From Tychonema litorale BBK16 (GTDB lineage Bacteria > Cyanobacteriota > Cyanobacteriia > Cyanobacteriales > Microcoleaceae), in contig NZ_JAKJHX010000070.1 of assembly GCF_021648855.1 (NCBI RefSeq), positions 1-27,538 on the forward strand: 27,538 bases of DNA, given 5' to 3'. Shown one piece after another: positions 7,959 to 27,538 of the stretch (within the stretch, counting starts at the first letter, position 1; every line of letters starts with the position of its first letter). A program made the translations under genes and the position numbers. The notes beneath the pieces were generated by a model. It had not been told where the DNA came from and searched no databases. It saw only the letters and a program-made list of their open reading frames with translations.

Positions 7959-7990
7959 ATGTCAAGTTTTGAAGCAAAAAAACTTGACAT
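7959..7990. promoter_or_regulatory. Perfect 12-bp inverted repeat, possible AbiEi operator
   Basis: ATGTCAAGTTTT and its exact reverse complement are separated by 8 nt. The palindrome lies just upstream of the preferred antitoxin start (8043). AbiEi antitoxins are known to repress their own operon by binding inverted repeats upstream, so this is a plausible operator. If translation instead began at the ATG at 7959, the palindrome would be within the coding region. Confidence 0.45.
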
Positions 7991-8042
7991 CCTACCCAGC
8001 GCCAACAACAATGAGAGTGAGGCTAAATATTGGACTCAAGCC

Positions 8043-8759
8043 ATGAAACCGATTCGAGTCAATACCTCCGCGCTCATTCACCAACAAATAGAAGAACAGG
8101 GAGAAGGCTACTGGCGGTTATCTGATTTTTCTGGACTACCGCCAACAGCAGTCTGCAAAACCCTCTCCCGTATGGCAAAAGCAGGAACCCTAGAACGAGT
8201 TAACAAAGGACTATACTATCGATCGCGCCAAACACGCTTTGGCCCCAGCCACCCGTCTCAAAGTGAGATTCAAAAGTTACCAGTTGCTCAAACCTTCCAG
8301 CCCGCAGGACTTAGTGCTGCTAATCTGTTGGGATTCACCACTCAGAATTCGATACAAGGTGAATTTGCCACCTCAGCTAATAGCATTCCCCGCACAATTA
8401 TTGGTTCACGCGCCAAAGTTCACACCCGCAGGCCAGAAACATGGAAACATCTCTCTAACACAGAAGCAGCCTTGCTTGATTTGTTGAGATCGAGGGCAAA
8501 GCTGAGCGAATTATCACCTGAACAAACTAAGCAACGCCTGCTAGAATGCTTCCGTGAAAGTAACCACTTTGAGCGTTTAGTAGCGGTAGCAGATGCCGAA
8601 CCTCCCCGCGTCCGTGCAATGCTAGGCGCAATTGGTCAAGAACTCGGTAAAAGCCCTCAGCAACTCGAACAACTTCGTCAAAGCTTAAACCCGATTTCCC
8701 GGTTTGACTTTGGGATTTTGAGGAACCTTTGTTATGCAAAAGAATGGCAAGCAAATTGA
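8043..8759 (+). CDS. AbiEi-family antitoxin / winged-helix regulator
   Basis: First gene of a type IV AbiE-like toxin-antitoxin pair: a 238-residue predicted antitoxin and transcriptional autorepressor. Residues about 8-60 form a winged-helix N-terminal domain (HQQIEEQGEGYWRLSDFSG, then TAVCKTLSRMAKAGTLERVNKGLYYR), the signature of AbiEi antitoxins. The C-terminal half carries the helical region seen in cyanobacterial homologues. An upstream in-frame ATG at 7959 would add 28 low-complexity residues and place a perfect palindrome within the gene. I prefer 8043, where recognisable homology begins, although neither start has a good ribosome-binding site. It overlaps the downstream toxin gene by 16 bp, which argues for coupled translation. 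Confidence 0.72.
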   Translation: MKPIRVNTSALIHQQIEEQGEGYWRLSDFSGLPPTAVCKTLSRMAKAGTLERVNKGLYYRSRQTRFGPSHPSQSEIQKLPVAQTFQPAGLSAANLLGFTTQNSIQGEFATSANSIPRTIIGSRAKVHTRRPETWKHLSNTEAALLDLLRSRAKLSELSPEQTKQRLLECFRESNHFERLVAVADAEPPRVRAMLGAIGQELGKSPQQLEQLRQSLNPISRFDFGILRNLCYAKEWQAN

Positions 8760-9414
8760 AACTTTGTGAATCTCCCGATTTTCACGATGCTATCCTGGCG
8801 GCCAGAGAACACTTTGCCAACCTCAGTCTTACCGAAGCATTTATTGAAAAAGATTACTATGTCACTGAAGCGCTGCGAATTGTAGCGAATCAGTGGGCAA
8901 CTCAAGTTATTTTTAAAGGGGGAACGAGCCTTTCAAAAGGATGGAAGCTGATTGAACGCTTCTCCGAAGATATTGACTTATTTTTAAACAAAGATGCGTT
9001 TACCCCGCCATACGGAGAAAATAGAGCTGACAAAGAGTTGAAAGCAATAGAAACCGCCGTCAGCCAGCATCCAAGATTAAAATTAAGCAACAACTCTCCA
9101 TCCAAGCGGGGCATCTACCGGCACAGCTATTTCAGCTACCCTCAACAATTTGCTGGGATGGGGAAAATTAGCTCGCACCTGTTTCTAGAGATGGGAACTC
9201 GCAGCGGTACTTATCCGGTGCAAACAGTCCCGCTGTCCTCCTATTTGGCTGAATTTCTCCACAAAATTAACGATAGCCTTAATGCTGAAGATGAATCGTC
9301 TTTTTCGATGACTTTAAAGAATATCAGCAGCAGTGCCAAAATCTCTGCTACGGCAATTATCCAACATGGGAGGAAATAGAAGCTTGTTTTTCTGAACTGC
9401 GTAACCAACTTTAG
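8744..9414 (+). pseudogene. AbiEii-family nucleotidyltransferase toxin, internally deleted and frameshifted
   Basis: The N-terminal half is a good AbiEii/AbiGii toxin (nucleotidyltransferase fold): AFIEKDYYVTEALRI, then FKGGTSLSKGWKLI and RFSEDIDLFL, which carries the acidic catalytic motif. The frame holds to about 9306, then runs out as an unrelated tail (LKNISSSAKIS...) and stops at 9379. In the +2-shifted frame from 9307, the DNA encodes the normal C-terminus of the family, DDFKEYQQQCQ followed by NLCYGNYPTWEEIEACF, to a TAG at 9412. About 90-100 residues expected between the halves are absent. So this is an internal deletion with an out-of-frame junction, not a mere sequencing slip. The product would be a 211-residue protein that is probably inactive, while the antitoxin gene remains intact. 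The ATG at 8744 is chosen over a TTG at 8729. Confidence 0.8.
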
Positions 9415-10036: not shown

Positions 10037-10200
10037 ACGGTTATTTGTGATTGGTTATTGGTCGTACCCTGAGCGTAGTCGAAGGGTCGAATAGTTATTG
10101 GTTATTGGTTATTAGAAGACTGTGAATAACTAATTACCAATGCCCAATGACCAATGCCCTATGCCCTATGCCCAATTCCCAATTTCCAATTCCCAAAACC
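10037..10200. repeat. Low-complexity tandem repeat block
   Basis: A run of TTGGTTA-type heptamers (about 10038-10117) is followed by their complement-like CCAATGCCC/CCCTATG/CCCAATTCC units (about 10134-10198). The two halves can pair into a long imperfect hairpin. A GAGCGTAGTCGAAGGGT-type repeat (about 10069-10087) is embedded. Such blocks are typical of filamentous cyanobacterial intergenic DNA; similar units occur at 4098-4130 and 13936-13985. Confidence 0.7.
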
Positions 10201-10209
10201 GCTTCGTTT

Positions 10210-11991
10210 CTATTTTATACCAGATTGGACGCGCCAGAGCGACGCATAAACCCCATCATGTTCGAGAAGTTGTTCGTGCTGCCCCGATTCTACCACCAGC
10301 CCCTCATCCATGACAAAAATGCAGTCAGCATTACGGACTGTGGAGAGACGATGGGCGATCGCAATTGTAGTCCGATTTTTAGTAATTCGTTCGAGCGATC
10401 GCTGAATAGCCGCCTCAGTCTCATTATCCACCGCTGAAGTAGCCTCATCCAGAATCAAAATCGGCGGATTCTTCAAAACAGCCCTAGCAATAGCAATCCG
10501 CTGTCTTTGTCCCCCCGACAATTTTTGACCCCGTTCCCCCACAATTGTCTCATAACCATCCGGCAATTGCGCGATAAACTCATGGGCTTCCGCAATTTTC
10601 GCAGCGTCAATTATATCAGAATTAGTTGCATCAAAACTGCCATAAGCAATATTTTCTGCCACCGTACCGTGAAATAAAAATACATCCTGACTCACCAATC
10701 CGATCGCACGACGCAAATCTTTTAAATTCAGTTTATTTAATTCAATTCCATCGAGAGTGATTTTACCATACTGTACCTCATAAAGCCGCAAAATCAACTT
10801 GACCAACGTACTTTTACCCGAACCAGTGGCACCAACTATCGCAGTAGTTTTTCCCGCCATGAGCTTCAAAGAAAAATATTGTAAAATCGGTCTTCTTTGA
10901 TTGTAAGAAAAAGTGACATTCTTAAATTCCAGCGCCCCCTTAATCGAGCTGATGGGCAATCGAATATCTCCAGTCCGAATTGCGATCGGAGTATCCAGCA
11001 AATCCATCGCCCGATTAGTAGAAGCCATCGCCCGCTGATACTGATCCAGAGTGTCCCCCAGCCGAGTCAGAGGCCATAGCAACCGCTGCGTCAAAAACAC
11101 CAAAACGCTATAAGTTCCTACCGACAATCTACCTGCGACAACCTCCAAACCACCCAGAAATAGCGTCGCGATAAAACCCAAGAAAACGATAATCCGAATC
11201 AACGGAATAAAAGCAGCAGAAAGCACGATCGCCTTTCGGTTACTTTGGCGATAAGCCTCGCTTTGTATTTCTATACGCTGAGTTTCATAGTCTTCGGAAG
11301 TAAAACTTTTAATAGTAGTAATTCCGCTCAAATTATTCGACAATTGACCGTTCAAAAAACTCACCTTTTCCCGCACATCAGCATACAGAGGGGCGAGACG
11401 GTTCTGAAATGCGATCGAACCCCAAACAATAAACGGAATCGGCAGCATTGACAGCACAGCAACAGTCGGAGATGCCGCAAAAAAAGCTGCACCAATAATG
11501 ATTACCGTGGTAATTACCTGAATCACATCATTAGCGCCGCCATCCAAAAAACGCTCCAGTTGATTGATATCATCATTCAAAATAGATATCAAGCCACCCG
11601 TGCTACGTTCCTCAAAGTAAGCTAATTCTAATTCTTGCAAATGGCTGTAAACTTCCAATCGCAAATCGTGCTGAATATTCTGAGCCAAATTCCGCCACAG
11701 GTAATCATAAGCATATTCAAAAATAGATTCCAATGTCCAAACAATGGCACTCAAAGCAGTGATAATTGCCAGTTGCCAAAAAACATCTTTTACGCCCCAC
11801 TTAGCGATAACTGAATCTTCATGTTTCACCACCACATCAACCGCAATCCCAATTAATGCTGGTGGCGCTAAGTCGAAGAGTTTATTCAAAAAGGAAGAGA
11901 TAGTTGCTAGCCAAGTTTGAAGACGGTAGCGGCGTCCGTATTTCAGCAACCGCTGCAAAGGATGGGTAGATTTAGGAGGATTTGGTGACAA
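10210..11991 (-). CDS. ABC transporter, fused permease and ATPase (MsbA-like half-transporter)
   Basis: A 593-residue type IV (exporter-fold) ABC half-transporter that should work as a homodimer in the inner membrane. The N-terminal half has about six membrane helices (residues about 25-310). The ATPase has Walker A GATGSGKS (387-394), the Q-loop at SQDVFLF, signature LSGGQ (491-495), Walker B ILILDE (511-516) and H-loop His547. All catalytic residues are present, so the protein is likely active. Relatives export lipids, peptides or drugs; the substrate cannot be told here. The start is a TTG (11989-11991) with no visible ribosome-binding site and no ATG nearby, so the start is uncertain by a few codons. 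It is not clearly in an operon. Confidence 0.92.
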
Positions 11992-13932: not shown

Positions 13933-13935
13933 TTA

Positions 13936-13985
13936 TTCCCAATTCCCCATTCCCCCATTCCCAATTCCCCATTCCCAATTCCCCA
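13936..13985. repeat. CCCAATTCCCCATT-type tandem repeat
   Basis: Several near-identical units of CCCAATTCCCCATT run directly into the stop codon of the permease gene. Low-complexity tandem repeats of this composition are common in these genomes and vary in copy number. Confidence 0.75.
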
Positions 13986-15821
13986 TTAAAGAAAATATCT
14001 AACCGTTGTTACTACCCGACTTTTTTTAGCCCGCAAAGCCGCCTTCAAGAAGAAAGCAGTTTGATTGTGCAGCAATCCCTCCCACCAATTTCGCGTTACA
14101 AAAGCCGGAATAATCAGCGTTAAGAATACCCCCGGACGTTGTTCTTCAAACAAAGTCAAAAAGTGAGTCAAAGGCTCACCAACCGAACGATAAGGCGATT
14201 CCAGAATTTCCAAAGGAATGTCAGACTGCAAATCTTCCCAAGCTGCTTGCAATTTTGCGCGATCGGTCAAACCAATATCTACATGAACTGCCACAACTTC
14301 ATCTGCAATCAAACGAGCATAATCTAGGGCATCAAAAGTTCCCCGGTGTAACTGTCCAACTAATACAACTGCCGGATGTGTCACCGTCTTAACTTTAGGT
14401 CTGGCAGGATAAGATATAGGTTCTATCCCTTGAATGTTCAAGCGAGCCGCTACATAGCGATAGTGTCGGCTAATAGCTAAAAATAGACTAACTACAAGTG
14501 GAATGGTTACAACAACAACCCAAGCTCCCAAAATAAATTTTGTGGCGACAATTACGCTCAAAACCAGTGTAGTTGCTACTGCACCAATACCGTTCATTAT
14601 CGCACTGAGCTGCCAACCTTTACCTCGCTCTTTCAACCAGTGAATTACCATTCCCGATTGGGATAAAGTAAAAGAAGTAAAAACGCCAACTGCATAGAGC
14701 GGAATCACCGCCGTAGTATCGCCTCGGAAGATGATAAGTAACAACGCAGAACAGAGACTCAGCAAAGTAATTCCATTAGAATAAACCAGCCGATCGCCCA
14801 AAAGCGACAACTGTCTCGGCAAAAAACTATCTCTCGCCAAAAAATAACAAAGTCGAGGAAAATCAGCATAACTGGTATTCGCAGCCAACAGCAAAATCAA
14901 CAGAGTTGATATCTGCAAATAGTAGTAAGATATACCGACACCAAAAATGTCTTTTCCCAATACAGAAAGGACTGTCTCATGTTCACTAGGAATCACATGA
15001 TAAACATTAGCTAAGTAACTAATTCCCACAAACATCAGTCCCAGAATCACCCCCATATAAGTCAAAGTCAGTCGGGCATTTTTCCATTCAGGAGGCTTAA
15101 AAGCTAACACCCCATCTGATATAGCTTCCACTCCTGTCAAAGCAGTACAACCCGCCGCAAACGCCCGCGCGATCAGAAATAATCCCAAAGGTTCCTTCGC
15201 TGGAATATTTTCTAATGTCGATAAAACATGACCTGTTGCCTGTTGGTATAAACCGCAGCCAATCAAGATAAAAATCCCAACAATAAAGGCATAGGTAGGA
15301 ACCATAAATATATTCCCAGATTCCCGCAATCCCCTAAGATTGGCAAACATGATAAGGACAACAAAAACTAAGCACAGTTCAACAGTATAAGGGTGCATTG
15401 ATGGAACTGCTGAAGTCAAAGCTGCTACCCCAGCCGAAATACTCACGGTGACGGTGAGGATGTAGTCAATCATCAGAGAAGCTGCTGCGATCAAACCTGG
15501 ATAAATACCCAAGTTTTCTCGCGCCACAATGTAAGCGCCGCCACCGTTGGGGTATGCTTTAATTGTCTGTCGATAAGAAAGTGCAACGATCGCCAACAGT
15601 AAAATAATAATGCCAGAAATAGGCAGCGATAAACTCAAACTGCTACTCCCGGCTAGTAATAATACCAGCAGAGTTTCTTGAGTAGCATAGGCAACAGAGG
15701 AAAGTGCATCGGAAGCAAGAACAGCTAATCCAGTAGCGTTGCTCAACCGTTCGTGAATCGATGCACTGGTGGGGAGAGATTCACCCAGTAAAACTCGCTT
15801 CAATCGAGAATAAGTATACAT
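13986..15821 (-). CDS. KimA/KUP-like APC-superfamily permease
   Basis: A 611-residue membrane transporter with about 12 membrane helices (to about residue 450) and a hydrophilic C-terminal domain of about 150 residues. The N-terminus (MYTYSRLKRVLLGESLPT, then LASDALSSVAYATQETL, YPNGGGAYIVARENLG and LMIDYILTVTVSISAG) closely resembles Bacillus KimA/YdaO, a high-affinity proton-coupled potassium importer of the KUP family. The length (about 607) and layout also match. Acidic and Tyr residues at the KimA ion-path positions (Asp in SSDALSS-type and IDYILT segments, Glu in GVEAISDG) appear kept. In Bacillus KimA the C-terminal domain binds cyclic di-AMP. Database annotation would probably say only 'APC family permease' or amino-acid transporter, so the substrate remains inference. 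Confidence 0.8.
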   Translation of the reverse strand: MYTYSRLKRVLLGESLPTSASIHERLSNATGLAVLASDALSSVAYATQETLLVLLLAGSSSLSLSLPISGIIILLLAIVALSYRQTIKAYPNGGGAYIVARENLGIYPGLIAAASLMIDYILTVTVSISAGVAALTSAVPSMHPYTVELCLVFVVLIMFANLRGLRESGNIFMVPTYAFIVGIFILIGCGLYQQATGHVLSTLENIPAKEPLGLFLIARAFAAGCTALTGVEAISDGVLAFKPPEWKNARLTLTYMGVILGLMFVGISYLANVYHVIPSEHETVLSVLGKDIFGVGISYYYLQISTLLILLLAANTSYADFPRLCYFLARDSFLPRQLSLLGDRLVYSNGITLLSLCSALLLIIFRGDTTAVIPLYAVGVFTSFTLSQSGMVIHWLKERGKGWQLSAIMNGIGAVATTLVLSVIVATKFILGAWVVVVTIPLVVSLFLAISRHYRYVAARLNIQGIEPISYPARPKVKTVTHPAVVLVGQLHRGTFDALDYARLIADEVVAVHVDIGLTDRAKLQAAWEDLQSDIPLEILESPYRSVGEPLTHFLTLFEEQRPGVFLTLIIPAFVTRNWWEGLLHNQTAFFLKAALRAKKSRVVTTVRYFL

Positions 15822-16601: not shown

Positions 16602-19451
16602 CTATACAGCAAAAGGTGGGTCAGCAAAATTAAATTTCATACTGATTGTGATGTCGTTAAAGTCACCTTTAGCAACAGCACTTGGGGAATCTTCCATGCC
16701 AAAACGATTAGTTCCTAGGGAAATAATATGGCTTGAGCGATCGAGATTAGCTTCCTTGTAAGCAAAATAAGTCGCTGACGATCGCTGTTGCGAATCGAAA
16801 GTTGTCATATACGGCGCGTACAACTTCCCGCTATCCAACAGATAGCTTCCAGAATTACTCAGTTGACCTTGATTTAAAGCACTCGTGTCAAGCTCAATTT
16901 TCTTTGACTTAGATAGAACAACATTCGCGTAATTTGGGTTTTGGGCCGTCACAATTTCACCCGTTAACGGATCTTTGACATCACCTTTCTTGTTGAGGAC
17001 TTCGTAAAGTCCAATCCGATGGGTCAAACCATTAGGCTGGGGACTTTTAGTAATGTCGATGTCTGCTTTGATTTTGCGATCGACAATTGTGGAAGTATCC
17101 AGAACATTGCGCCCCTTAGTCTGGCGATGGCCAATGATATCCTGAAAGCTCTCTACAGGCCCATTTAAGGCGATCGCCCCTCCCGAACCGTCAGAAAACT
17201 GAAAAGACAAACCATCAGCACTTGGCTGTGCAGAAAACTGAGGGTTTTGGAATGAGAACTCGATCGGAGGATTAGCATCCAAAATTGACCCGCCACCAAC
17301 TTTATAGATAGCTAATCTCTCCGTGGTTTCAACAGGAATATTTCGGGAGGTATTAGTAGCACTGGGAGAATTATTAGCAGTGGTATTGAATAAAACGATC
17401 GCTCGTTTCCGCACTGCTTCTAAGTAGCCAATATCTGTAGGCAGAAGACCATTCACCCGATTATTAGCATCATCAACAGCAAACACGCCATATTCAACAG
17501 GTTGATTGCTCGGTTTTCCAGCCGCGAACAAAAGATTAATCCCTACACCGGGCGTATTGGATTTGTTATTGACAGCTACAATCCCATTAGTGGCATTTAA
17601 AGAGACAGATAGCTGTGGTGTATCTTTAAACAGACCAGTGAGCAGATCTACACCGTCTTTCTGACCCTGGTATACACCCGTTAGCGGATCGCTAGCCGAC
17701 GATGTACGAACCGAATCAATTCGGATCTGAGAAACGGTTTTATCTGAGAGTCCATTACCTTCCAGAAGTGGCGAAAAATTTGCAAAAAAATCTTTCGTGT
17801 ACTGTGCCTCTAAGTGATTGGTTAATGCTGCTCCACCAACATACTTCTCGTAAAAAAAGTATTGGTTTGGTTGCAAAGGATCTTCATAAAACTCAAAAGC
17901 GAGATTATTAGATTGTTCGGTGGCTTTAGTTTTTTTTGTCAGATCGTCTACCAGAGATCTGATTCGATCGCGAGTTCCTGCCTTGGCTTTAAATTTGCCA
18001 GTTAAAACTTTCGGACTGTTGACTTCTGTATCCGTTTCGATTATATCAATTGTCGGAGAATTAACTACAGATCCAATTGACTTTAGTCCCTGCTCAAATT
18101 GCTTGTAACTATCCGATTTTTGATACTTATCTAAGTCAGAATACTTGTTCCATTTTTCAATCAATAGCAAATTTTGAGGATTGTTGGGATCTCGGTAAAA
18201 ATCAGTGGAGGAATTACCGTTCTGTTGTTCAGTATTTTTATCGTAATTGCTGACTAAACTTAGCAATTGCTGAGAATTAGCGGCTCCAGCAGAAATACTC
18301 AATCGCTTGATAGGCGCTGGATCTAGCGGAATATTAAACTTAACTGACTTACTGGGAGTATTGGGGGCTGGTGGGGCATAGGTTGGACTTGGGGGCGGAC
18401 TGGGGATAGGTTGAGTATCTTCGGGAATGGCTGGGTTCCAATTACCTCCATTCGCTAAATAACTTCCAAAATTCTGGCTCAGCGAAACATAGTAATTGGG
18501 GAATTGGTTGAAAGCATCTGTCAATCTTTGCTGGTTGTCAATAGACGCTTGTGAACCAGGATTTTTATTATAAAGTGAGCCAATCCCAGCCGCTTCATTG
18601 GCGGTATCACCAAAGATGCCAATACCATTTTTGAAAAAAAATTGCTCAATACCTCCCGGTGTCGCATTTTGATCCTTTCTAGACCAAATCGTTAAAAAAG
18701 TTAGAGGTTCTTTAGTAGGGCTGGCATTTCTGTAGTTGTGGGTATATCCGGCTGGTAAGAAGCCAATTTGCCCTGGAGTCAGGTGTACGTAGTAGAAGTC
18801 TTCAATTTTAGGAATACCATTTTGCCCGGGAATTTCTCCGATTTTATAGGGAGTTTTATTAGCAACGGGTAACCAAGCATCCATTTCCCCTTGCAATAAA
18901 ATGAACCATTCATCTTCAGCCCAGTGAGTGTGAGGAATCGGACCAGTATTGTAGGGAGTAACAGTCAGTCCCATAGTGTAAGGTCGAGCCTGAGATGAAG
19001 TTGAAATAGCCGTTAAATCAACGGGCAAACCTTGTTGAGTTTGGGGATTTAATGCTTGTACAGCAGCCTTGCTGACGCTGGTCATTAAAAATTGTTGCGA
19101 TTCGCCGGCAGGAAAAGAGTCCCACTGATTTGAACCAGGGCTAGTTTCCTGTTGCAATCCTGTATAAAATGATAAATTTTTCCCGTTAGGATCGCCACTA
19201 GGTTCCTTTAAAACATTCGAGTAAGAGAAGTTTTTGGGAATTGGCAATCCAATATTTTTAGGCCATTGGAATTGAGGAGCTTGATTGTAGGGTGCATTGG
19301 GATTATATCTGTCCTCTTTAGAGAAACTAGGCCAGCTAAATCCTGGGGGTAGTTTGTCAGTAGTGGTGCTGGTATTCTGAGTATTGTCCTCAGTGTGGTC
19401 GTGACCAGCGTGGCTAGCTTTGCGGGTGTCATTGTGTTCGATTTCTAACAT
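16602..19451 (-). CDS. Cupin-ABM-ABM-DUF4114-like fusion protein
   Basis: A 949-residue multidomain protein. (1) Residues about 1-100: polar, His/Asp-rich start (HAGHDHTED). (2) Cupin at about 155-260 with both textbook motifs: HxH(X4)E(X6)G with His174, His176, Glu181, and G(X5)PxG(X2)H(X3)N with His238. This is a complete metal site, as in quercetin 2,3-dioxygenase-like cupins. (3) Proline-rich linker, about 346-367. (4) Two consecutive antibiotic-biosynthesis-monooxygenase-like (ABM) domains, about 380-470 and 485-565, each with an FYxDP...YEKW/KY-type core. (5) A beta-rich C-terminal third (about 640-945) ending in FGMEDSPS...GDFNDITI, like DUF4114, found in secreted cyanobacterial proteins. 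No signal peptide is visible, so export would need a C-terminal or other route. Last gene of the minus-strand run. The architecture is unfamiliar to me; substrate unknown. Confidence 0.8.
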   Translation of the reverse strand: MLEIEHNDTRKASHAGHDHTEDNTQNTSTTTDKLPPGFSWPSFSKEDRYNPNAPYNQAPQFQWPKNIGLPIPKNFSYSNVLKEPSGDPNGKNLSFYTGLQQETSPGSNQWDSFPAGESQQFLMTSVSKAAVQALNPQTQQGLPVDLTAISTSSQARPYTMGLTVTPYNTGPIPHTHWAEDEWFILLQGEMDAWLPVANKTPYKIGEIPGQNGIPKIEDFYYVHLTPGQIGFLPAGYTHNYRNASPTKEPLTFLTIWSRKDQNATPGGIEQFFFKNGIGIFGDTANEAAGIGSLYNKNPGSQASIDNQQRLTDAFNQFPNYYVSLSQNFGSYLANGGNWNPAIPEDTQPIPSPPPSPTYAPPAPNTPSKSVKFNIPLDPAPIKRLSISAGAANSQQLLSLVSNYDKNTEQQNGNSSTDFYRDPNNPQNLLLIEKWNKYSDLDKYQKSDSYKQFEQGLKSIGSVVNSPTIDIIETDTEVNSPKVLTGKFKAKAGTRDRIRSLVDDLTKKTKATEQSNNLAFEFYEDPLQPNQYFFYEKYVGGAALTNHLEAQYTKDFFANFSPLLEGNGLSDKTVSQIRIDSVRTSSASDPLTGVYQGQKDGVDLLTGLFKDTPQLSVSLNATNGIVAVNNKSNTPGVGINLLFAAGKPSNQPVEYGVFAVDDANNRVNGLLPTDIGYLEAVRKRAIVLFNTTANNSPSATNTSRNIPVETTERLAIYKVGGGSILDANPPIEFSFQNPQFSAQPSADGLSFQFSDGSGGAIALNGPVESFQDIIGHRQTKGRNVLDTSTIVDRKIKADIDITKSPQPNGLTHRIGLYEVLNKKGDVKDPLTGEIVTAQNPNYANVVLSKSKKIELDTSALNQGQLSNSGSYLLDSGKLYAPYMTTFDSQQRSSATYFAYKEANLDRSSHIISLGTNRFGMEDSPSAVAKGDFNDITISMKFNFADPPFAV

Positions 19452-19555
19452 GATTGCTTAATTGCCAAAAAAGTTTATGCAGGAAATTTTAGAACGTGAG
19501 TTGGAGGGGCTCGAATAATTTCACAAGGCGAGAAGATCGTCGAACTCACGTTTCA

Positions 19556-19915
19556 CTACTGTGCCGATCGCATTTGAGCGACTATCTCATTCAACACCCC
19601 AAAACAACCAGCTACTTTATTGAAGCCAGCATAAACACACATAAACAGCAGTAATTCTTCAATCTCCTCATAAGTAGCTCCCTGCTTGAGAGCCATAGAG
19701 ACGTGAGCTCCAAAGGGGTTCCCAGGGCCAACTTGATCCTGATTCACTACATCTACAGCAATAGTAATCAGAGCTTTTGTTTTTTGATCGATGTGTGGTA
19801 ATCCCCAGGCTTCTCCAGCCACTCTGGTTACAAAATCACCAAATTTGGGATTGATTCCCTTCAGTCCTTCTTGCAGCTCTAAATCATCCAAAACTGCATT
19901 TTTGTAATTTTCCAT
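19556..19915 (-). CDS. Carboxymuconolactone decarboxylase-family protein
   Basis: A 119-residue all-helical protein of the CMD/AhpD-like fold: FVTRVAGEAWGLPHIDQKTKALITIAVDVV, then a central HVSMALKQGATYEEIEELL and CVYAGFNKVAGCFGVLNE. (These are two motifs spread over the length.) The order and spacing are those of the family. AhpD-type members use a CxxC or CxxH; here the position before the conserved His is not Cys (PFGAH), so a peroxidase function by that motif is not supported. A Cys does occur later (about Cys91 and Cys103). The start is ATG with a GGAAGG box upstream. It lies between the exported ABM gene and the cupin fusion; a CMD gene (slr1853) also belongs to the Synechocystis icfG neighbourhood. 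Confidence 0.82.
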   Translation of the reverse strand: MENYKNAVLDDLELQEGLKGINPKFGDFVTRVAGEAWGLPHIDQKTKALITIAVDVVNQDQVGPGNPFGAHVSMALKQGATYEEIEELLLFMCVYAGFNKVAGCFGVLNEIVAQMRSAQ

Positions 19916-20028
19916 GAGGCTTTACCTTCCTAACTAAACTTTACTACGTAGGCATTTCTAAGTAATCTAGGATTTACGCCAATTTTCAGAATTGGTAGAA
20001 TCAGCGGTCAACTATCAACTGTCAACTA

Positions 20029-20496
20029 TTATTTAGGCAACTCATAAGCAACACTGTTAGTGGTATAAACTCTAACAAGCAGAGAACCCTTAATAATTTC
20101 TGAAAATTTGGCCAGCAGCGGCTGAACGTAAGGCTGCTTTAAATGCTCCCTTAAAGCTGTGCGATCTTTCCACTCTTCGTAGTAGATGAAAGAATTTTTT
20201 GCTGTTGGCTGCTCGTAAAATCCGTAGCTGATACAACCTGATTCAGCTCGCGTAGGAGCGAGAGCAGCAGTTGCTAATTTCAGAAATAGCTCCCGCTGTT
20301 CGGGTTTGACTTCAAATCGATTGGCTACAACTAATGGCAGAGTGACATTACTATCCTGTTGCCTGTTTGATGGAACCTGACTCAAGCCTGAAGTGCTGAA
20401 TATTGTTGTGCAAACAAAAGCGGCTAAAAAGAGCCAAAGAACCTTACTGATGCCTCGGAAGCTTTTAAAAAAATATGCTTTTAGCATTTTTTGCAT
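20029..20496 (-). CDS. Exported ABM-domain (YgiN-like) quinol monooxygenase
   Basis: A 155-residue protein. Residues about 1-40 look like a signal peptide or membrane anchor: several Lys/Arg, a hydrophobic core VLWLFLAAFVCTTIF, then a STSGLSQ region suitable for signal peptidase I. The mature part is one ABM domain: VANRFEVKPEQRELFLKLA, then AESGCISYGFYEQP, FIYYEEWKDRTALREHLKQP and a final helix and strand. This is the arrangement of YgiN-like quinol monooxygenases, small dimeric cofactor-free enzymes acting on quinols or polyphenols. A periplasmic location is inferred. The same fold is found twice inside the cupin fusion two genes downstream. Confidence 0.8.
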   Translation of the reverse strand: MQKMLKAYFFKSFRGISKVLWLFLAAFVCTTIFSTSGLSQVPSNRQQDSNVTLPLVVANRFEVKPEQRELFLKLATAALAPTRAESGCISYGFYEQPTAKNSFIYYEEWKDRTALREHLKQPYVQPLLAKFSEIIKGSLLVRVYTTNSVAYELPK

Positions 20497-20575
20497 CTGT
20501 ATTTGATGGTTGCGGAGGTAGTAATTTGAGTAGTGAGCTGGTACAACCCACCTAAGATGCCTCTGACAGAGGCTT

Positions 20576-20607
20576 TAGATTTTAGCAAAACTGCTTGCTA
20601 AAATCTA
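20576..20607. repeat. Perfect 13-bp hairpin between STAS and ABM genes
   Basis: TAGATTTTAGCAA, loop AACTGC, TTGCTAAAATCTA. It lies 22 bases after the stop codon of the minus-strand STAS gene. On the minus strand no T-run follows, so a full intrinsic terminator is doubtful; it may protect the upstream mRNA or partly separate the icfG-like genes from the cupin/ABM group. Confidence 0.55.
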
Positions 20608-20628
20608 AAATCTTTTCTACTAAGGCTA

Positions 20629-20967
20629 TCAGGCGCTTTCGAGTCCGATAGAATCATAATCGTCAACGGCAATGACACCTTGTATAAATCCGGTTTTTTC
20701 CAAGGTATCAAGGATCATTTCTTGAGCGCCAACGACGTAAATATCGACATCAACTCCCATTTTTTGTTTGGCGAAGATCAGGACTCGCAGCCCCGCACTC
20801 GCCATATAGTCTAACCCTTGCAGCATCAGCACTAAATGTTTGGGTTTGTTGACAGCCGCTTTCTCAATCTCGTCTTTGAATATCTGTGCAGAACTTGCGT
20901 CTAATTCGCCAGTCAATGTAATTTTTGCAGCATCACCTGATGATTCTAGAGTTGCAGTGAAAGCCAT
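20629..20967 (-). CDS. STAS-domain anti-sigma factor antagonist (Slr1856/Slr1859-like)
   Basis: A 112-residue single STAS domain. It should act in a partner switch: unphosphorylated it binds an RsbW-like kinase/anti-sigma factor, and phosphorylation on the conserved Ser releases it. The site is visible as YMASAGLRVL, with Ser57 the predicted phosphoacceptor. The start is ATG with an AAGGAC box about nine bases upstream. It follows glgX by 53 bp, and a second STAS gene lies on the other side of glgX. The arrangement STAS-glgX-STAS with a PP2C phosphatase in the same run mirrors the Synechocystis icfG cluster. Confidence 0.88.
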   Translation of the reverse strand: MAFTATLESSGDAAKITLTGELDASSAQIFKDEIEKAAVNKPKHLVLMLQGLDYMASAGLRVLIFAKQKMGVDVDIYVVGAQEMILDTLEKTGFIQGVIAVDDYDSIGLESA

Positions 20968-21020: not shown

Positions 21021-23135
21021 TTACTTGCCGACTAAGATGACGATCGAGCGATCGCCCAAAAGAATACCGTGCTGGTTTTCTAATTTGGGTTCCGTTCCCG
21101 GTTCCCAAATATCATCTGGAGACGTGCAGCCGGTATTCACAGAAATGTGCCATCGCAACTGTTCCGGCAAACCGGGAATTTCAAACCAGTTCGCCTCCCA
21201 GTGCATATTGATCGCGACATAAATGTAGTTATCTTCAACACTTCCTGCTTTCGCGTGTTTGCCGCAAAGCAGGAAGGCGATGGTGCGACAACTGGGAGAC
21301 CAATCTGCGTTCCAGGCTTTGGTGCCGTGCCAAGTGATATCTGCATAGCCGCTGCCCACATAGTCCCGGTTCTGGAAGTGATATTTATTTCTCAGTACGG
21401 GGTGAATGTTGCGGAAGGCAATGCTGTTTTTGACGAAGCGAAATAGATTGGCGTTGGTTTTTAATAAATCCCAATCCAGCCAATTGAGTTCGTTATCGTG
21501 GCAGTAGGTATTGTTGTTGCCATTTTGACTGCGACCGAGTTCATCGCCCATTAGCAGCATGGGCACGCCTTGGCTGACCATCAGCATCGCGATCGCATTT
21601 CGCATTTGGCGCGATCGCAAAGCATTAATTCCCGAATCCTCCGTCCACCCTTCTGCGCCGCAATTCCAACTGTCATTATCATTGCAGCCGTCGTTATTAT
21701 TTTCGCCGTTAGCTTCATTATGTTTGTCGTTATAAGACACCATATCAGCTAAGGTAAAACCGTCATGCGCCGTAATGAAATTAATTGAAGTAGCGGGGCC
21801 GCGGCCTTGACTCTCGTAGAGATTGGGTGAACCTTGCAAGCATTGTGCCGCATCCCCGACAGTGCCATCTCCTTTCAAAAACTTGCGAATATTGTCGCGG
21901 TATTTACCATTCCATTCCGCCCAACGCCCGTAAGCAGGAAATGAACCAACCTGATACAAACCACCCGCATCCCAAGCTTCAGCAATGAGTTTGCACTTCG
22001 CTAAAATTGGGTCAAATGCCAGTGTTTCCAGCAATGGCGGATTAGATAGCGGATAGCCCCAAGCATCGCGACCTAAAATAGCTGCTAAGTCAAATCTGAA
22101 GCCGTCAATGTGATATTCACTTGCCCAGTAGCGCAAGCAATCCAACACAATATTGCGGACGATCGGATTATTACAATTCAGCGTGTTGCCACAACCGCTG
22201 AAGTTAAAGTAATAACCTTCCGGGGTTAACATATAGTAGGTTTTGTTATCCAGCCCCCGGAATGAGATTGTCGGGCCGCGTTGATCCCCTTCTGCTGTGT
22301 GGTTGAAGACGACATCTAAAATGACTTCAAGGCCATTTTTGTGCAGTTCTTTGACGAGGGCTTTGACCTCATCTACCTGCATTCCTAATTTCCCAGTGGC
22401 GGCATAGCCAGCTTTGGGTGCAAAGAAACCGACGGTACTGTAGCCCCAATAATTGACTAGCAATTCTCCCGTGATGGGGCTGGGGCGAGAGTGTTCAAAT
22501 TCGTCAAACTCATAAATTGGCATGAGTTCGATCGCATTAACGCCCAACTCTTTAAAGTAGGAAATTTTTTCGCGGATGGCGGCAAAAGTTCCCGGATGTT
22601 TCACGCCGGAGGAAGGATGCTTGGTAAAACTGCGGACGTGCATTTCATAGATAACCTGATCCTCCGGTGCAATCTCCAGAGGTCGGTCATTTTCCCAATC
22701 AAAGTCATCAAAACTAATTCGCGATCGATGTTGATAAATATCATTCCAATCCGGCGCTACGCCCCAAATATCTCGGCCGCCAATAATTTTGGCATAGGGA
22801 TCTAGGAGAATTTTGGTTTTGTCAAAGTAATGACCTGCTTGGGGGTTGAAAGGGCCGTCCATGCGATAGCCGTATTCGATGTTTTCGTAATCGATGTCGA
22901 ATACAGTCATGGTAAAGACATTGCCAATGCGGAACTCTTCGGGAAAGGGAATTTCGGCAAAGGGTTCTTTAGCGTGTCTTTTAAACAGCACTAGCGTGCA
23001 GGATGTGGCATAGCTGGAAAATACGGAAAAATTAACTCCTCCGGGTATCAGACTTGCTCCGAAAGGCATCGGGCGACCTACACGCAGTTTAAAATCGCCG
23101 TGTTTGTGAGTGGGGTGAATGTCTATTCGTTCCAT
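21021..23135 (-). CDS. glgX: Glycogen debranching enzyme GlgX (isoamylase type, GH13)
   Basis: A 704-residue cytosolic enzyme that hydrolyses alpha-1,6 branches of glycogen or phosphorylase-limit dextrin. An N-terminal CBM48-type beta domain (about 15-150, with GVNFSVFS and YGYRMDGP) precedes the GH13 barrel. The four barrel motifs are present: VILDVVFNH, DGFRFDLA (nucleophile Asp349), LIAEAWD (acid/base Glu386) and TAHDGFT (Asp458). The length is normal for GlgX/TreX. The ATG follows an AGGACAGGT ribosome-binding region. Its placement between two STAS genes ties glycogen breakdown to the partner-switch cluster; the Synechocystis counterpart is slr1857. Confidence 0.95.
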   Translation of the reverse strand: MERIDIHPTHKHGDFKLRVGRPMPFGASLIPGGVNFSVFSSYATSCTLVLFKRHAKEPFAEIPFPEEFRIGNVFTMTVFDIDYENIEYGYRMDGPFNPQAGHYFDKTKILLDPYAKIIGGRDIWGVAPDWNDIYQHRSRISFDDFDWENDRPLEIAPEDQVIYEMHVRSFTKHPSSGVKHPGTFAAIREKISYFKELGVNAIELMPIYEFDEFEHSRPSPITGELLVNYWGYSTVGFFAPKAGYAATGKLGMQVDEVKALVKELHKNGLEVILDVVFNHTAEGDQRGPTISFRGLDNKTYYMLTPEGYYFNFSGCGNTLNCNNPIVRNIVLDCLRYWASEYHIDGFRFDLAAILGRDAWGYPLSNPPLLETLAFDPILAKCKLIAEAWDAGGLYQVGSFPAYGRWAEWNGKYRDNIRKFLKGDGTVGDAAQCLQGSPNLYESQGRGPATSINFITAHDGFTLADMVSYNDKHNEANGENNNDGCNDNDSWNCGAEGWTEDSGINALRSRQMRNAIAMLMVSQGVPMLLMGDELGRSQNGNNNTYCHDNELNWLDWDLLKTNANLFRFVKNSIAFRNIHPVLRNKYHFQNRDYVGSGYADITWHGTKAWNADWSPSCRTIAFLLCGKHAKAGSVEDNYIYVAINMHWEANWFEIPGLPEQLRWHISVNTGCTSPDDIWEPGTEPKLENQHGILLGDRSIVILVGK

Positions 23136-23220: not shown

Positions 23221-23553
23221 TTACTTCAGAGCCGCTATTCCTGCATCTAACGTGTCGCAAGTTGTAAAAAAGCTGAGAAATCCTGTTACGTCCATTGTAT
23301 CTTTAATTTCCTCAGCAACCCCCACCAATACAAGTTTGCCTTCTTGAGCCGATACCAGCCGATAAAGTGACAGCAGCATCCGTAAGCCAGCACTAGACAT
23401 ATAGGGAACTAGAGTCATATCTAAGAGAATTTTACTCCCAGGTTTTGCCAGAGTCAGCACCTTTTCTTGAACTCCTAGTGCGGTACTAGCATCGATATCT
23501 CCATCCAACTTTACAACTGTTATTTCGGCTGTTTTACTAATTGCAATATCCAC
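23221..23553 (-). CDS. STAS-domain anti-sigma factor antagonist, second paralogue
   Basis: A 110-residue STAS protein with the phosphorylation segment YMSSAGLRMLL (Ser54 the likely acceptor). The start is GTG (23551-23553) preceded by AAGAGG at a good distance; there is no competing ATG near it. It precedes glgX by 85 bp and follows the epimerase gene. It is clearly different in sequence from the STAS protein at 20629, so the two probably have distinct partners, as Slr1856 and Slr1859 do in Synechocystis. Confidence 0.88.
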   Translation of the reverse strand: MDIAISKTAEITVVKLDGDIDASTALGVQEKVLTLAKPGSKILLDMTLVPYMSSAGLRMLLSLYRLVSAQEGKLVLVGVAEEIKDTMDVTGFLSFFTTCDTLDAGIAALK

Positions 23554-23711: not shown

Positions 23712-25535
23712 TTACACCGGCACAATCTGCACTTTGACTTTCACCCGCTCTTTGGTATCCGGCAACTGAACGGTTAAGTTATCTGCGTCGAAGTTGCTGT
23801 AGGGTTGTCCGTCGATTTCACAAGCACCAATTTTGATACTTCCGGGGGGCAAAATATCAGGTGAAACTCGCAAGATATTGTCTTTAAATCCTCCCGGCAT
23901 TGGCTTGAAGTAGAAGTCCATCGGCTGCTTAGTAATCAGCAGGTTGGTGTAAACCGCCGATAGGTAGCACAGTTCGGTGGAGTGATAGCCAGACATGGAG
24001 TGAGAGCCTTTGAATCGCTCATTTCCCAGCAAGTAGGGCAATCCGTTGGCTAAAGTATTGAAGTAAACAGCACCGTCGTCATGATCCAGGAAGAACGCAC
24101 TGTAGAAGGCCGCGGCTTCGCGAGCGTGGCGCAAGTATTCTGGGTTTTGAGTTAGTCCGCTGAGGATTAAGTAAGCTAAGATTGCTTGTTCTTGCTGCCA
24201 CCAAGCTTTGCGATCGTGCCAGACAAAGCTGTGCTGTTCTTCATCTGGTTGGCGCATCCGTTCGACGACATCGTACCAGCCGCCACGTTGGCGATCGCTA
24301 CCTACATCGGGCATGAGATCCGCAATCTTTTCAGCCAATTCTTTGTAATTATCTTTGGCTTTCAGCGATTGCATCCGCATCAAATTCCAGGAAATCTTCA
24401 GGTTGTGACCGACAACAGCGCGGTCTTGTTGCCAGCCCCAGATTTTGTCAGGAGTCCAATCTTCATTGAACTTTTCTTGAACAAACGGGCTGGTTTCGTA
24501 CTCAGGGAAATACTTGGCGATCGTGTCAAAAGTGTCCTCTAAAAAGTCGGCGTATTTCTGGTCGCCTGTTGCCAGATACAGGTTAATTAAATACGCAGGT
24601 GCGTGGTCGCCGACTGAGTTCCAATTTTTGCGAGCGCGGTTGCGACCTAGGGACTCGGCACGGGCATCAAGGGAGAGGGCATCAACGTGGGAGAAATAAC
24701 CGCCTTGTTCTTTGTCTATGAAGAACTTGTCAAACAAATCGACAGTCATTTCGGCATCTTTGAGGATGCGGGGGTCGCCAGTAATTCGGTAAGTTTGAAT
24801 CGGGCCGGCAAGAGCGTAAATTTGTTCGTAAGCGGGGATGCAATCGTAGTCGTCGCTAAACTCAGAAGTGAGCAGTTTTTGTTCCCGCTGTCCTTTGACC
24901 CGTACCCCGTGATACCAGTAAATCAGGTTTTCATCGGGGTCGTAAAACCTCATGTGATCGCGCAGGTATTCAGTACCTTTTTCAGCGGCTTCTAAAAAGC
25001 GGTCTTCACCTGTCATTAAAAAAGCTGAAGCAAACCCATAAACCAAGCGGGAAACGGTGTCAGTTTCTTGCAAGTAGTCGTCTTGCTTTTTGCTACCGGA
25101 CAGATTTAGCATCGTCCGATATTCTTTATAGTCAATCGGCTGCTTGGGGTAGTTAAATTGCCATTTCAGGTAGCTATCGGCGATCGATCGCACTTGCTTA
25201 ATCCACCAATCCTGTTCTTCGTGGCGATATTGTTGCGACCCTTCACCGGCAAAAACTAAAGATTTGGCTTCAAATTTGTGTCCTTCACCGTGAGGGTAGA
25301 AGACACCGTAAGCGAAGACGTGCTGGCCGGGGTGCAGCAATTCTGCAAACCTTTCCGTAGCGCTGATGTAAGATTCTTCTAGGTTTTGGGTAATGCGGCC
25401 GTAAGTAGTTTCGGTCAGGTACGCAGTATATTCGCGACCGTCTGATGTTTTGATGCCGAAGCTTTTGTCGCTGCGGTTGAACTTAGTAACATATCCTCCG
25501 ATCATGTCGGAGAATGAAAAATTCATCCGTTCCAT
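23712..25535 (-). CDS. AGE-family epimerase/isomerase-like protein (Slr1855-like)
   Basis: A 607-residue protein. Residues about 1-100 form a small beta-rich domain (YVTKFNRSDKSFGIKTSDG, then HVFAYGVFYPHGEGHKF split over strands). The rest is a long alpha/alpha-barrel of the N-acylglucosamine 2-epimerase (AGE) superfamily. The barrel shows VVGHNLKISWNL, with the conserved His after Gly, and a later RKAWWQQEQAILAYL, equivalent to the catalytic His and Trp/Glu region of AGE enzymes. Relatives interconvert N-acylglucosamine/N-acylmannosamine or epimerise free sugars and cellobiose; the substrate here is unknown. The start is ATG with an AGAGGAAA box. The Synechocystis counterpart slr1855 lies beside slr1856 (STAS) in the icfG cluster. 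Confidence 0.82.
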   Translation of the reverse strand: MERMNFSFSDMIGGYVTKFNRSDKSFGIKTSDGREYTAYLTETTYGRITQNLEESYISATERFAELLHPGQHVFAYGVFYPHGEGHKFEAKSLVFAGEGSQQYRHEEQDWWIKQVRSIADSYLKWQFNYPKQPIDYKEYRTMLNLSGSKKQDDYLQETDTVSRLVYGFASAFLMTGEDRFLEAAEKGTEYLRDHMRFYDPDENLIYWYHGVRVKGQREQKLLTSEFSDDYDCIPAYEQIYALAGPIQTYRITGDPRILKDAEMTVDLFDKFFIDKEQGGYFSHVDALSLDARAESLGRNRARKNWNSVGDHAPAYLINLYLATGDQKYADFLEDTFDTIAKYFPEYETSPFVQEKFNEDWTPDKIWGWQQDRAVVGHNLKISWNLMRMQSLKAKDNYKELAEKIADLMPDVGSDRQRGGWYDVVERMRQPDEEQHSFVWHDRKAWWQQEQAILAYLILSGLTQNPEYLRHAREAAAFYSAFFLDHDDGAVYFNTLANGLPYLLGNERFKGSHSMSGYHSTELCYLSAVYTNLLITKQPMDFYFKPMPGGFKDNILRVSPDILPPGSIKIGACEIDGQPYSNFDADNLTVQLPDTKERVKVKVQIVPV

Positions 25536-25586: not shown

Positions 25587-26195
25587 TTACTTCTTTTCAA
25601 TCTCTTTGACAAAAACCTCCATGAATAGACCGACTACTCCTGGATGCTTCCCTGTAATCAAATTGCCATCTACCACTAAGTCAACGGTGACTTCATTCTC
25701 TTCGTCGTAAACGACTTCTGCGCCGGCATTTTCCACATCGCAGATGATGTTGTGAGCACAGGTCACTTTCCGCCCTTTCAGTAAGTCTGAGTCGGCGCAG
25801 AAAAGCCACAAACTGTGACAGATTGTGCCGAGCTTGACACTTTCTGCCTGCATGGATTTTCTGAGGAATTCTACTGCCGGTGCTTGATTCTTTTGACCTT
25901 TTTTAACTTTGGCCTCATATCTTAGGCGATCGGTAGCGTAAGCGCCAATTGCAATGATGCCTTTGTAGGCAGAGGGAGCGATATCATTGACTTCTGTAGT
26001 GACAGTGACGTGCTCTTTAACTGTATCATCTTCTGGGTTCGATCCGAAAGTTAATTGTTGATTTCCCCACAAGTGAGAAATATACTCGACTTCGTAACCG
26101 TGTTTCGGGAAAAATTCATTGAATTCCCGATATTCCGTAGGATCGAAATGTTCTTCGATCAGAACACCAATTTTGCCCTTGCTTTCAGTTGCCAT
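25587..26195 (-). CDS. DJ-1/PfpI-family protein (Slr1854-like)
   Basis: A 202-residue class I glutamine amidotransferase-like protein. The nucleophile elbow LGTICHSLWLF places the reactive Cys at position 126, followed by His; the partner acidic residue is probably in the IGVLIEEHFDPTEY segment. Family members are stress chaperones, glyoxalases/deglycases or peptidases; none can be assigned. Start: the ATG at 26195 has an AAGGAG box about 11 bases upstream and begins right before the first strand. An in-frame ATG at 26252 would add 19 residues with a weak ribosome-binding site, so I prefer 26195. It lies 51 bp upstream of the epimerase gene and is probably co-transcribed. Confidence 0.85.
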   Translation of the reverse strand: MATESKGKIGVLIEEHFDPTEYREFNEFFPKHGYEVEYISHLWGNQQLTFGSNPEDDTVKEHVTVTTEVNDIAPSAYKGIIAIGAYATDRLRYEAKVKKGQKNQAPAVEFLRKSMQAESVKLGTICHSLWLFCADSDLLKGRKVTCAHNIICDVENAGAEVVYDEENEVTVDLVVDGNLITGKHPGVVGLFMEVFVKEIEKK

Positions 26196-26303
26196 GCCTA
26201 CAAACTCCTTGCGATCGTAAACTATTTGAGGTTGATAATTGTCCTCTGACATAGAAGCCCCTGACGGAATTCCTACATCTCGTAACCAGACAATAGGAGG
26301 TAT

Positions 26304-26867
26304 TTAGGCCTTGATTAGCTTTAAAAGTGAATCAGGGGCAAAAACATCTCGGTAGAAAGTCAATTGTTCGGTTTTGAGGTAGCAGCCACCTCGGTTGCCG
26401 CGCCGCACCCAAGTGACATTGCCTTTGGCTAGAGTTTCGTTAGTTTCGTCGTCCACACACTTCCATTCAAAGTAAGTGTGTTCTCCAAAAAACATCACAA
26501 TCGGCCAGCACATTGTCACCCCTGGCTGTGCAATTAAAGCCCACCAGTGTTTCTCGCGTTCTTTTTGTTTGTCCAAGCCGCGATAGGGGCCGTCTTGGCA
26601 CAAATAAACCAAGTCTTCGCGATATTCACCTGTTAAGATGTCACCCCGGCATTGTCTTAATGCCTCGCAGTGAGTCGGCCACCATTCCTGATTTTCTTTT
26701 TCGATTTGTTCGAGGGTATAATCTGAGCTAATTTCGGGCAAGTTTTCTTCCTTCATTGCCACAATTTTCTCGGCTAACTCAATCATTGTTTGCTTAAGTT
26801 CGTCCGAAACCAATCCAGGTTTTGAATAGTCTGCTATCAAGCCTTTATAGTAGTTGATTCGAGTCAT
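26304..26867 (-). CDS. Uncharacterised NTF2/SnoaL-like protein of the icfG-type cluster
   Basis: A 187-residue soluble protein without membrane segments or signal peptide. The N-terminal third is helical (MTRINYYKGLIADYSKPG, then ELKQTMIELAEKIVAMKEE). The rest is Trp-rich with alternating strands (HWWALIAQPGV, FFGEHTYFEWKCVD, LAKGNVTWVRRGNRGGCYLK), which suggests the NTF2/SnoaL cone fold. No catalytic motif is recognised. The start is ATG with a strong AAGGAGT box. It sits between the PP2C phosphatase gene and the DJ-1 gene, all minus strand and closely spaced. Position suggests it may correspond to slr1852 of Synechocystis, but this is from memory of gene order, not alignment. Confidence 0.6.
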   Translation of the reverse strand: MTRINYYKGLIADYSKPGLVSDELKQTMIELAEKIVAMKEENLPEISSDYTLEQIEKENQEWWPTHCEALRQCRGDILTGEYREDLVYLCQDGPYRGLDKQKEREKHWWALIAQPGVTMCWPIVMFFGEHTYFEWKCVDDETNETLAKGNVTWVRRGNRGGCYLKTEQLTFYRDVFAPDSLLKLIKA

Positions 26868-26939: not shown

Positions 26940-27538
26940 TTAGGATGTGCCGGGGATTTTCCGTCGCACTGCTAGCAAGGTAATGTCATCAAACTGCGCT
27001 GCACAGTCTATATGGGTAAACACATCGGTTTTCATACGTTCTAGTAATTCGGATGCTGAGGAATAAGGCTGATTTAGGAGTGAAAGCACTCGCTTTTCTG
27101 TGAAAAATTCCCTGTTGGGGCTGCGGGCATCAGTAAGACCATCTGTGTAACCAAATAGAATATCTCCCGGTTCAAGCTGAACCTGCTGAATTTTAAACTT
27201 CATATTTGGCATCATTCCTACGGCGGGGCCCGTAGATTTGAGGGCAGTCTTGATCCCAGAAGCATTGATAATTAAAGGTGATTCATGCCCGCCGTTAATA
27301 TAGGTTAATAAACCTGTTTCTGGATTGAGTACGCCGAAGAACATTGTGGCAAACATACCGGTTTCACCATGTTCTTCACTAATGTAGTTGTTGGTAATCT
27401 CAATGGCCTGGAGAGCTTGCCTTTGATATAAGTCAAATTCTAATTCCATTCCGGCTGTACTATCCTTTGCTTCTCGATCGCAGAACTGAAAATTTGTTCC
27501 TCCCGAAAACAGCCGAATAAAGCTGCGAAATAGCCCCA
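26940..27538 (-). CDS. PP2C/SpoIIE-type serine phosphatase, C-terminal part (IcfG-like)
   Basis: The C-terminal 199 codons of a gene that continues past the right edge. The frame stays open to the edge (GLFRSFIRLFSGGTNFQF, then CDREAKDSTAGMELE...), so an ATG at 27447-27449 is internal. Domain evidence for SpoIIE/RsbU-type PP2C: FATMFFGVLNPETGLLTYINGGH (read as FATMFFGVL and LTYINGGH), GPAVGMMP, LEPGDILFGYTDGLTDARSP and a final FDDITLLAVRR with metal-binding Asp residues. Such enzymes dephosphorylate STAS antagonists in partner switches. With two STAS genes and glgX in the same run, this fits IcfG (Slr1860). Any N-terminal sensor domain lies outside the window. Confidence 0.85.
   Translation of the reverse strand, partial: GLFRSFIRLFSGGTNFQFCDREAKDSTAGMELEFDLYQRQALQAIEITNNYISEEHGETGMFATMFFGVLNPETGLLTYINGGHESPLIINASGIKTALKSTGPAVGMMPNMKFKIQQVQLEPGDILFGYTDGLTDARSPNREFFTEKRVLSLLNQPYSSASELLERMKTDVFTHIDCAAQFDDITLLAVRRKIPGTS

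Follow-up and report, generated by a model that had tools for sequence, protein, structure and literature searches.

What might a protein that joins a cupin, two ABM domains, and a DUF4114 module do at the downstream end of an icfG-type carbon-control cluster? The question is raised by a 949-residue fusion encoded on the minus strand (16602..19451) of a 27,538-nucleotide stretch of Tychonema litorale BBK16 (contig NZ_JAKJHX010000070.1), the whole of which we call the window. The cupin-ABM-ABM-DUF4114 architecture, proposed in a sequence-only reading of the locus, was confirmed by profiles, alignment, and Foldseek. With approximate borders, the protein consists of a CucA-type cupin (residues ~110–345, with ligands His174, His176, Glu181, and His238), a proline-rich linker (~346–372), ABM1 (~375–470), ABM2 (~475–580), and a beta-rich C-terminal module with DUF4114 at its end (~610–949). 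Relatives exist in independent genomes, and an assembly or frame artefact as the source of the fusion was rejected. It is a new and rare combination of known domains, and no description of it was found in the open-licence papers to which our literature search was limited. Our preferred answer, to which we give slightly less than an even chance, is an accessory small-molecule pathway tied to icfG, with an outer step carried out by cupin and ABM and an inner step by a carboxymuconolactone decarboxylase-family (CMD) protein and a 187-residue protein of NTF2/SnoaL-like fold.

The window encodes the CMD protein (119 residues, 19556..19915), a separate 155-residue ABM protein with an N-terminal export-type hydrophobic segment (20029..20496), and the 187-residue protein (26304..26867), all on the minus strand. 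We surveyed 386 cyanobacterial genomes at E thresholds of 1e-5 for the fusion (at most two candidates scored per genome), 1e-10 for the 187-residue protein, 1e-25 for CMD, and 1e-8 for CucA and ABM; the chance probabilities that follow are uncorrected for phylogeny, and related genomes are not independent. The 187-residue protein was found in 24 genomes spread over 8 families. All 22 genomes with CMD fall inside these 24 (chance 7e-34), as do all four with the fusion (1e-5). Seven genomes have a CucA-like cupin, six of them inside the 24 (2e-7) and the exception being G191, which has no 187-residue protein. ABM relatives at E 1e-15 or better, a line drawn after the list was seen, are present in nine genomes, all inside the 24 (3e-12); at 1e-8 they number 15, with nine inside (1e-8).

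The co-distribution is accompanied by adjacency. Within ~10 kb of the 187-residue gene, CMD and DJ-1 genes each occur at 20/24 loci, an epimerase gene at 19/24, and GlgX at 18/24. Two genomes with the 187-residue protein have no CMD at 1e-25 (G123 and G276), and CMD lies farther off in G014 (~13 kb) and G380 (~25 kb, with a second copy elsewhere). In the closer fusion group, whose members are at least 40% identical (the window, G099, G187, G145, and Okeania), CMD lies at most 4 kb from the fusion in all five cases and an ABM gene at most 1 kb away in four, the ABM of G187 lying elsewhere. The fusion carriers Okeania (L003) and Synechococcus AG-670-F04 also have both CMD and the 187-residue protein; the latter carries two distant fusion relatives with no CMD beside them. 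The proposal that fusion, CMD, and separate ABM are linked is thus borne out by co-distribution and adjacency, co-occurrence being far from rare where the closer fusion exists. The conserved core is another unit than the one first proposed: it is CMD together with the 187-residue NTF2/SnoaL-fold protein, which the sequence-only reading had left out.

The CMD protein, probably cytosolic, had been described as carboxymuconolactone decarboxylase-like. Against the PcaC model TIGR02425 it scores 42 bits, far below the equivalog cut-off of 155.7, and it does not have the CxxC of AhpD; a C..C pair occurs in 3/19 related CMD stretches, further downstream than the place that we take the AhpD motif to occupy. 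The protein therefore gives no grounds for reading either ring-cleavage decarboxylation or peroxidase chemistry from it. A CMD tied to transcription-control genes is also seen in the ECF41-linked COE genes (carboxymuconolactone decarboxylase, oxidoreductase, epimerase), whose CMDs, in the passages concerned, all carry CxxC, whereas that of the window does not (PMC3426412). The two systems differ further in that the control genes of the window form a STAS/SpoIIE partner switch, and in that COE loci usually hold one of the three genes whereas the window holds a whole set of genes. The 187-residue protein, the conserved partner of CMD, belongs to no Pfam or NCBIfam family and was placed by fold comparison only: its predicted structure is a curved-sheet alpha+beta cone of the NTF2/SnoaL-like kind. 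The window's protein is 56–78% identical to 13 other cyanobacterial members of its family. The family profile gave one chance match in PDB (E 0.94) and no match in NCBIfam, and comparison with SnoaL-type neighbors gave no result (probability 0.6).

On the outer side, the nearest solved relative of the cupin among the matches listed is CucA (Sll1785; PDB 2XL7) of Synechocystis sp. PCC 6803. His174, His176, Glu181, and His238 align with a His, His, Glu, and His of CucA that we take to be its metal ligands, and the four positions are invariant in 11/11 sequences aligned. The cupin is below threshold in Pfam, yet the CucA match and the conservation of the ligands support it, and chance as an explanation was rejected. 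CucA as closest known cupin displaces the flavonol dioxygenase type suggested before; no quercetinase appears among the listed NCBIfam, Pfam, or PDB hits, although flavonol dioxygenase activity is still compatible with the data, and nothing found implicates quinones or flavonoids as substrates. CucA, a periplasmic copper cupin, is described as folding in the periplasm and holding copper, and MncA as a Tat-exported protein that folds inside and holds manganese (PMC4192464). A CucA homologue adjoins the same CMD, 187-residue, and icfG genes in the loci L051 and L052. Where CucA is a small Sec-exported cupin (PMC4192464), however, the fusion is a multi-domain protein of 949 residues with a hydrophilic N-terminus and no visible Sec-type signal, in which the cupin is followed by the ABM pair and the DUF4114 end. 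It could share the working of CucA, yet we do not classify it as CucA. Should the fusion fold outside the cytoplasm, copper would be expected as in CucA, and by this analogy copper is probably the metal of its cupin.

The ABM domains (PF03992) have profile scores above the curated cut-off and an alpha-beta barrel-type fold. The best Foldseek matches of the fusion model are two-domain ABM monooxygenases, among them PDB 3F44 and 3MCS, the anthrone oxidase-like 5F9P, and PenE 9KDP, with >200 columns matched at E 1e-9 to 6e-5. Unlike the fusion, those chains contain no cupin or DUF4114 part as far as the search shows, and the relative orientation of the two domains is not reproduced (root-mean-square deviation ~15 over both). 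The fold lists shown hold no match for the cupin or for residues 580–949, where the model is weak and such absence is uninformative. LsrG, an ABM-fold protein named as AI-2 modifying, is among the ABM matches, and the separate ABM protein is 29% identical to ABM2 of the fusion. Cofactor-free oxygenase activity of these domains is putative, as the fold alone says nothing on activity. One source names some relatives “quinol monooxygenase YgiN”; we rejected this label because it seems to derive from the ABM domain. One fusion relative (L036:7676-11089) has an additional DUF5648 domain behind the C-terminal module. A distant one in Synechococcus sp. AG-670-F04 (L004:2038-9999) stands beside a GMC oxidoreductase, an MFS transporter, and an OprB porin, a set that would suit the import and oxidation of an external compound.

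The C-terminal DUF4114 module is of the kind that closes many large cyanobacterial proteins. DUF4114 (PF13448) scores 30.3 bits in the genome search, above the cut-off of 27, and 25.9 bits, slightly under it, in the protein scan; it is present in 5/11 listed relatives. At 25/26 loci examined (L009–L034, a part of all partial matches to the fusion) the module stands at the extreme C-terminus. Cysteine is absent from the window's fusion and from 9/10 aligned relatives, the genome encodes one HlyD-type protein that passes the curated cut-off, and relatives have an RTX/CHRD protein and an OprB porin as neighbors. For PilY1.1 of Myxococcus, calcium binding by DUF4114 is reported, along with a contribution of the domain to the attachment of pili to exopolysaccharide (as cited in PMC12058595). 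Because a Sec signal and cysteine are missing, the module is terminal, a HlyD-type protein is present, and PilY1.1 provides a precedent, secretion followed by calcium-dependent tethering is the likeliest predicted fate of the fusion. No export signal was seen in CMD, so not all three gene products need act at the cell surface, as first proposed.

The fused parts also exist as neighbors. In L051 and L052, two genomes of one genus, an ABM gene with a hydrophobic N-terminus and two CucA-type cupin genes are divergent from those for the 187-residue protein, CMD, DJ-1, epimerase, STAS, and GlgX, so that separate ABM and CucA homologues lie beside the same genes; the L051 cupins match CucA at E 1e-112 over 234 residues (second) and 7e-81 (first). 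This layout mirrors sll1783 and slr1852, described as divergent neighbors in PCC 6803 (PMC5341163). Away from icfG genes, a CucA-like cupin gene adjoins an ABM gene in L067 (G306), together with TIM-barrel and alpha/beta-hydrolase genes that also accompany cupins in L051, L052, L061, L065, and L066. Elsewhere EthD, VOC, SnoaL, and SDR proteins stand with the CMD/187-residue pair, in some cases as fusions: L046 encodes an EthD-EthD-187aa fusion of 518 residues next to a CMD-EthD-EthD-VOC-SnoaL-SnoaL fusion of 1054 residues (L046:10249-13413), and L049 has open reading frames similar to those of L046 (CMD, EthD, VOC) by BLAST. EthD loci (11/24) and ABM/cupin loci (9/24) show zero overlap (P 5e-4, BLAST-based and computed without phylogeny). 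EthD is presumably an alpha-beta barrel protein, as is ABM, and the two may therefore replace each other; a SnoaL-SnoaL-ABM protein in the EthD locus L046 blurs the split (the ABM scan covered L046 but not the probable equivalent protein in L049), which we treat as a lead only.

Attachment to a carbon-control cluster held as well, and the link is wider than the sequence-only reading saw, with STAS, GlgX, epimerase, and a SpoIIE-type phosphatase found together on the same strand as the fusion. Reading downstream along the minus strand, the window holds the C-terminal part of an IcfG-like SpoIIE-type phosphatase (26940..27538, the frame open to the contig end; its counterpart in G099 has 655 residues), the 187-residue gene, a DJ-1/PfpI-family gene (25587..26252), and an N-acylglucosamine 2-epimerase-like gene that is the slr1855 counterpart by annotation and order (23712..25535). 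These are followed by a second STAS-like gene (110 residues, 23221..23553), GlgX glycogen debranching enzyme (21021..23135, above the TIGR02100 cut-off), the STAS anti-sigma-factor antagonist (20629..20967), the separate ABM, CMD, and the fusion. The second STAS-like assignment is by BLAST rather than profile scan, with 31–33% between the two STAS-type products of the window and of G099. Gaps within the series are 51–158 bp, and 780 bp separate the fusion from the next larger gene downstream. The same gene order is repeated in G099. Promoter and terminator sites between 15600 and 27538 were no commoner than in shuffled sequence (11 vs 18.2; 7 vs 11.7), and the operon structure is therefore read from strand and spacing. 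Two hairpins, one with 15 pairs, lie at 20559–20609 in the gap from STAS to ABM; they are listed for the plus strand, such sites are no commoner than in shuffles, and they might separate two operon halves.

In Synechocystis, the slr1852-1862 operon includes the epimerase slr1855, the anti-sigma antagonist Slr1856, GlgX1, and IcfG (PMC8670252), slr1853 is annotated as CMD (PMC3564720), and the partner-switch proteins of the operon and their carbon link have been described (PMC12329169). By gene order, slr1852 should be the 187-residue protein and sll1783 the ABM, and the order in L051 suggests that slr1854 is DJ-1. The window shares with this cluster its STAS, GlgX, epimerase, DJ-1, CMD, and SpoIIE-type phosphatase genes but differs in their order and in the addition of the fusion gene at the downstream end. 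The neighborhood of sll1784-1785 and slr1852-1862 is already in print, the two being named as operons of one salt-repressed region (PMC8670252), and sll1783-1785 are reported to respond to many perturbations (PMC2924297). No paper with both sll1785 and slr1853 was found in the open-licence literature.

These observations can be assembled into a model in which the 949-residue fusion would be the outer arm of an accessory pathway linked with the icfG operon of carbon control. The fusion would leave the cell by a type I or similar route that needs no Sec signal, take up its metal, probably copper like CucA, where it folds, and be held in the sheath or exopolysaccharide through a calcium-dependent DUF4114. 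Its tandem ABMs may pair into a single pseudo-dimeric barrel, in which ABM2 (His546) would more probably be the active half, and cupin and ABM, with the separate exported ABM, would act outside the cytoplasm on a small organic compound, oxidizing or rearranging it. The product would then be processed by the cytosolic CMD and the 187-residue protein, joined in other species by EthD, VOC, SnoaL, or SDR, and the STAS/SpoIIE partner-switch genes would tie expression to carbon status. The Synechocystis counterparts of both arms, sll1784-1785 and slr1852-1862, are reported to fall together in salt (PMC8670252); the remaining reports, on sll1783-1785 and on slr1853-1854, each bear on a single arm.

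Several findings weigh against this proposal. The cupin part is modeled with low confidence (block means 22–54 across residues 1–260), the GGxGxD calcium repeats of an RTX motif are absent from all 949 residues, and no type I secretion genes were recognized by Pfam among 20 open reading frames of the window, in which an ABC exporter at 10210–11991 was not typed. ABM2 keeps the near-invariant His546 but ABM1 has no corresponding histidine, which may leave one half of the pair without activity. The fusion is rare, and at 4/24 loci with the 187-residue gene both EthD and ABM/cupin are missing from the vicinity. The fusion and CMD of G145 and G187 do not adjoin icfG genes, and icfG control is therefore not universal. 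Co-transfer of accessory-cluster genes can itself give co-occurrence, and the genes could be the cargo of one island, brought together by shared transfer with no common function. The epimerase occurs in only 2/20 genomes of the window's genus (2/16 of those at least 90% complete), which makes the icfG-type cluster accessory there, and the cluster is flanked differently in the window and in G099, both as expected of such cargo; we nonetheless consider this quite improbable, as CMD and the 187-residue protein keep each other's company through changes of surroundings and order, the 24 genomes with the latter belonging to 8 families, and the domains of the set are fused in several combinations (187-aa/EthD, CMD/EthD-VOC-SnoaL, cupin/ABM).

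Metal handling without catalysis is a likelier alternative than shared transfer, though still an unlikely one. The fusion would then be an exported sheath protein that binds or stores copper or another metal, its ABMs only binding small ligands, which would suit the kinship of its cupin with CucA: passages on CucA describe a major copper-binding protein, suspected of storage or binding, with no catalytic role given (PMC9764255, PMC4192464). A His-containing N-terminus (H14-x2-H17-x-H19) in the window's fusion and some relatives also fits, but it is missing in P0008 (Okeania), P0004, P0005, and P0007, and the company of CMD, NTF2-fold, EthD, VOC, SnoaL, SDR, and hydrolase genes speaks for a carbon compound. 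With similarly low probability, CMD, DJ-1, VOC, ABM, and the NTF2-fold protein could clear reactive carbonyls or quinones inside and outside the cell as a stress module rather than a dedicated pathway. The presence of DJ-1 at 20/24 loci of the 187-residue gene, and reported values of 1.59 to 2.71 for slr1853 and slr1854 under ethanol (PMC3564720) and of 1.61 for Slr1853 at one point under hexane (PMC3479031), taken as fold increases, are in keeping with detoxification. The decrease of both Synechocystis operons in salt argues the other way, as does the absence from CMD of the CxxC of peroxidase types, and links to glycogen debranching and a partner switch would be unexpected for such a module.

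In a more far-reaching reading, CucA, for which the passages concerned settle no physiological role, and the fusion could be two forms of one oxidation step outside the cytoplasm. The step would belong to a so far undescribed pathway of cyanobacteria, with CMD and the new NTF2-fold family as its cytosolic core and with expression under the icfG partner switch; in one lineage a multi-domain enzyme, secreted and bound to the sheath, would have taken over the step from a free periplasmic protein. We regard this broader proposal as doubtful, though less so than metal handling or detoxification. CucA is a model case in the study of how proteins acquire the right metal, and the literature passages concerned give it no enzymatic role. 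To place CucA, recurring small-molecule enzymes, and the icfG carbon switch in one testable gene set is in our view the more interesting point, and the unexplained first genes of the icfG operon, those for the 187-residue protein and CMD, gain a common context.

Elsewhere in the window, positions 7959–9379 encode an AbiEi/AbiEii-type toxin-antitoxin pair by Pfam, AbiEi being barely above the cut-off, and intergenic short tandem repeats with 7-base units (CCAATGC and ATTCCCC) lie at 10132–10196 and 13935–13987.

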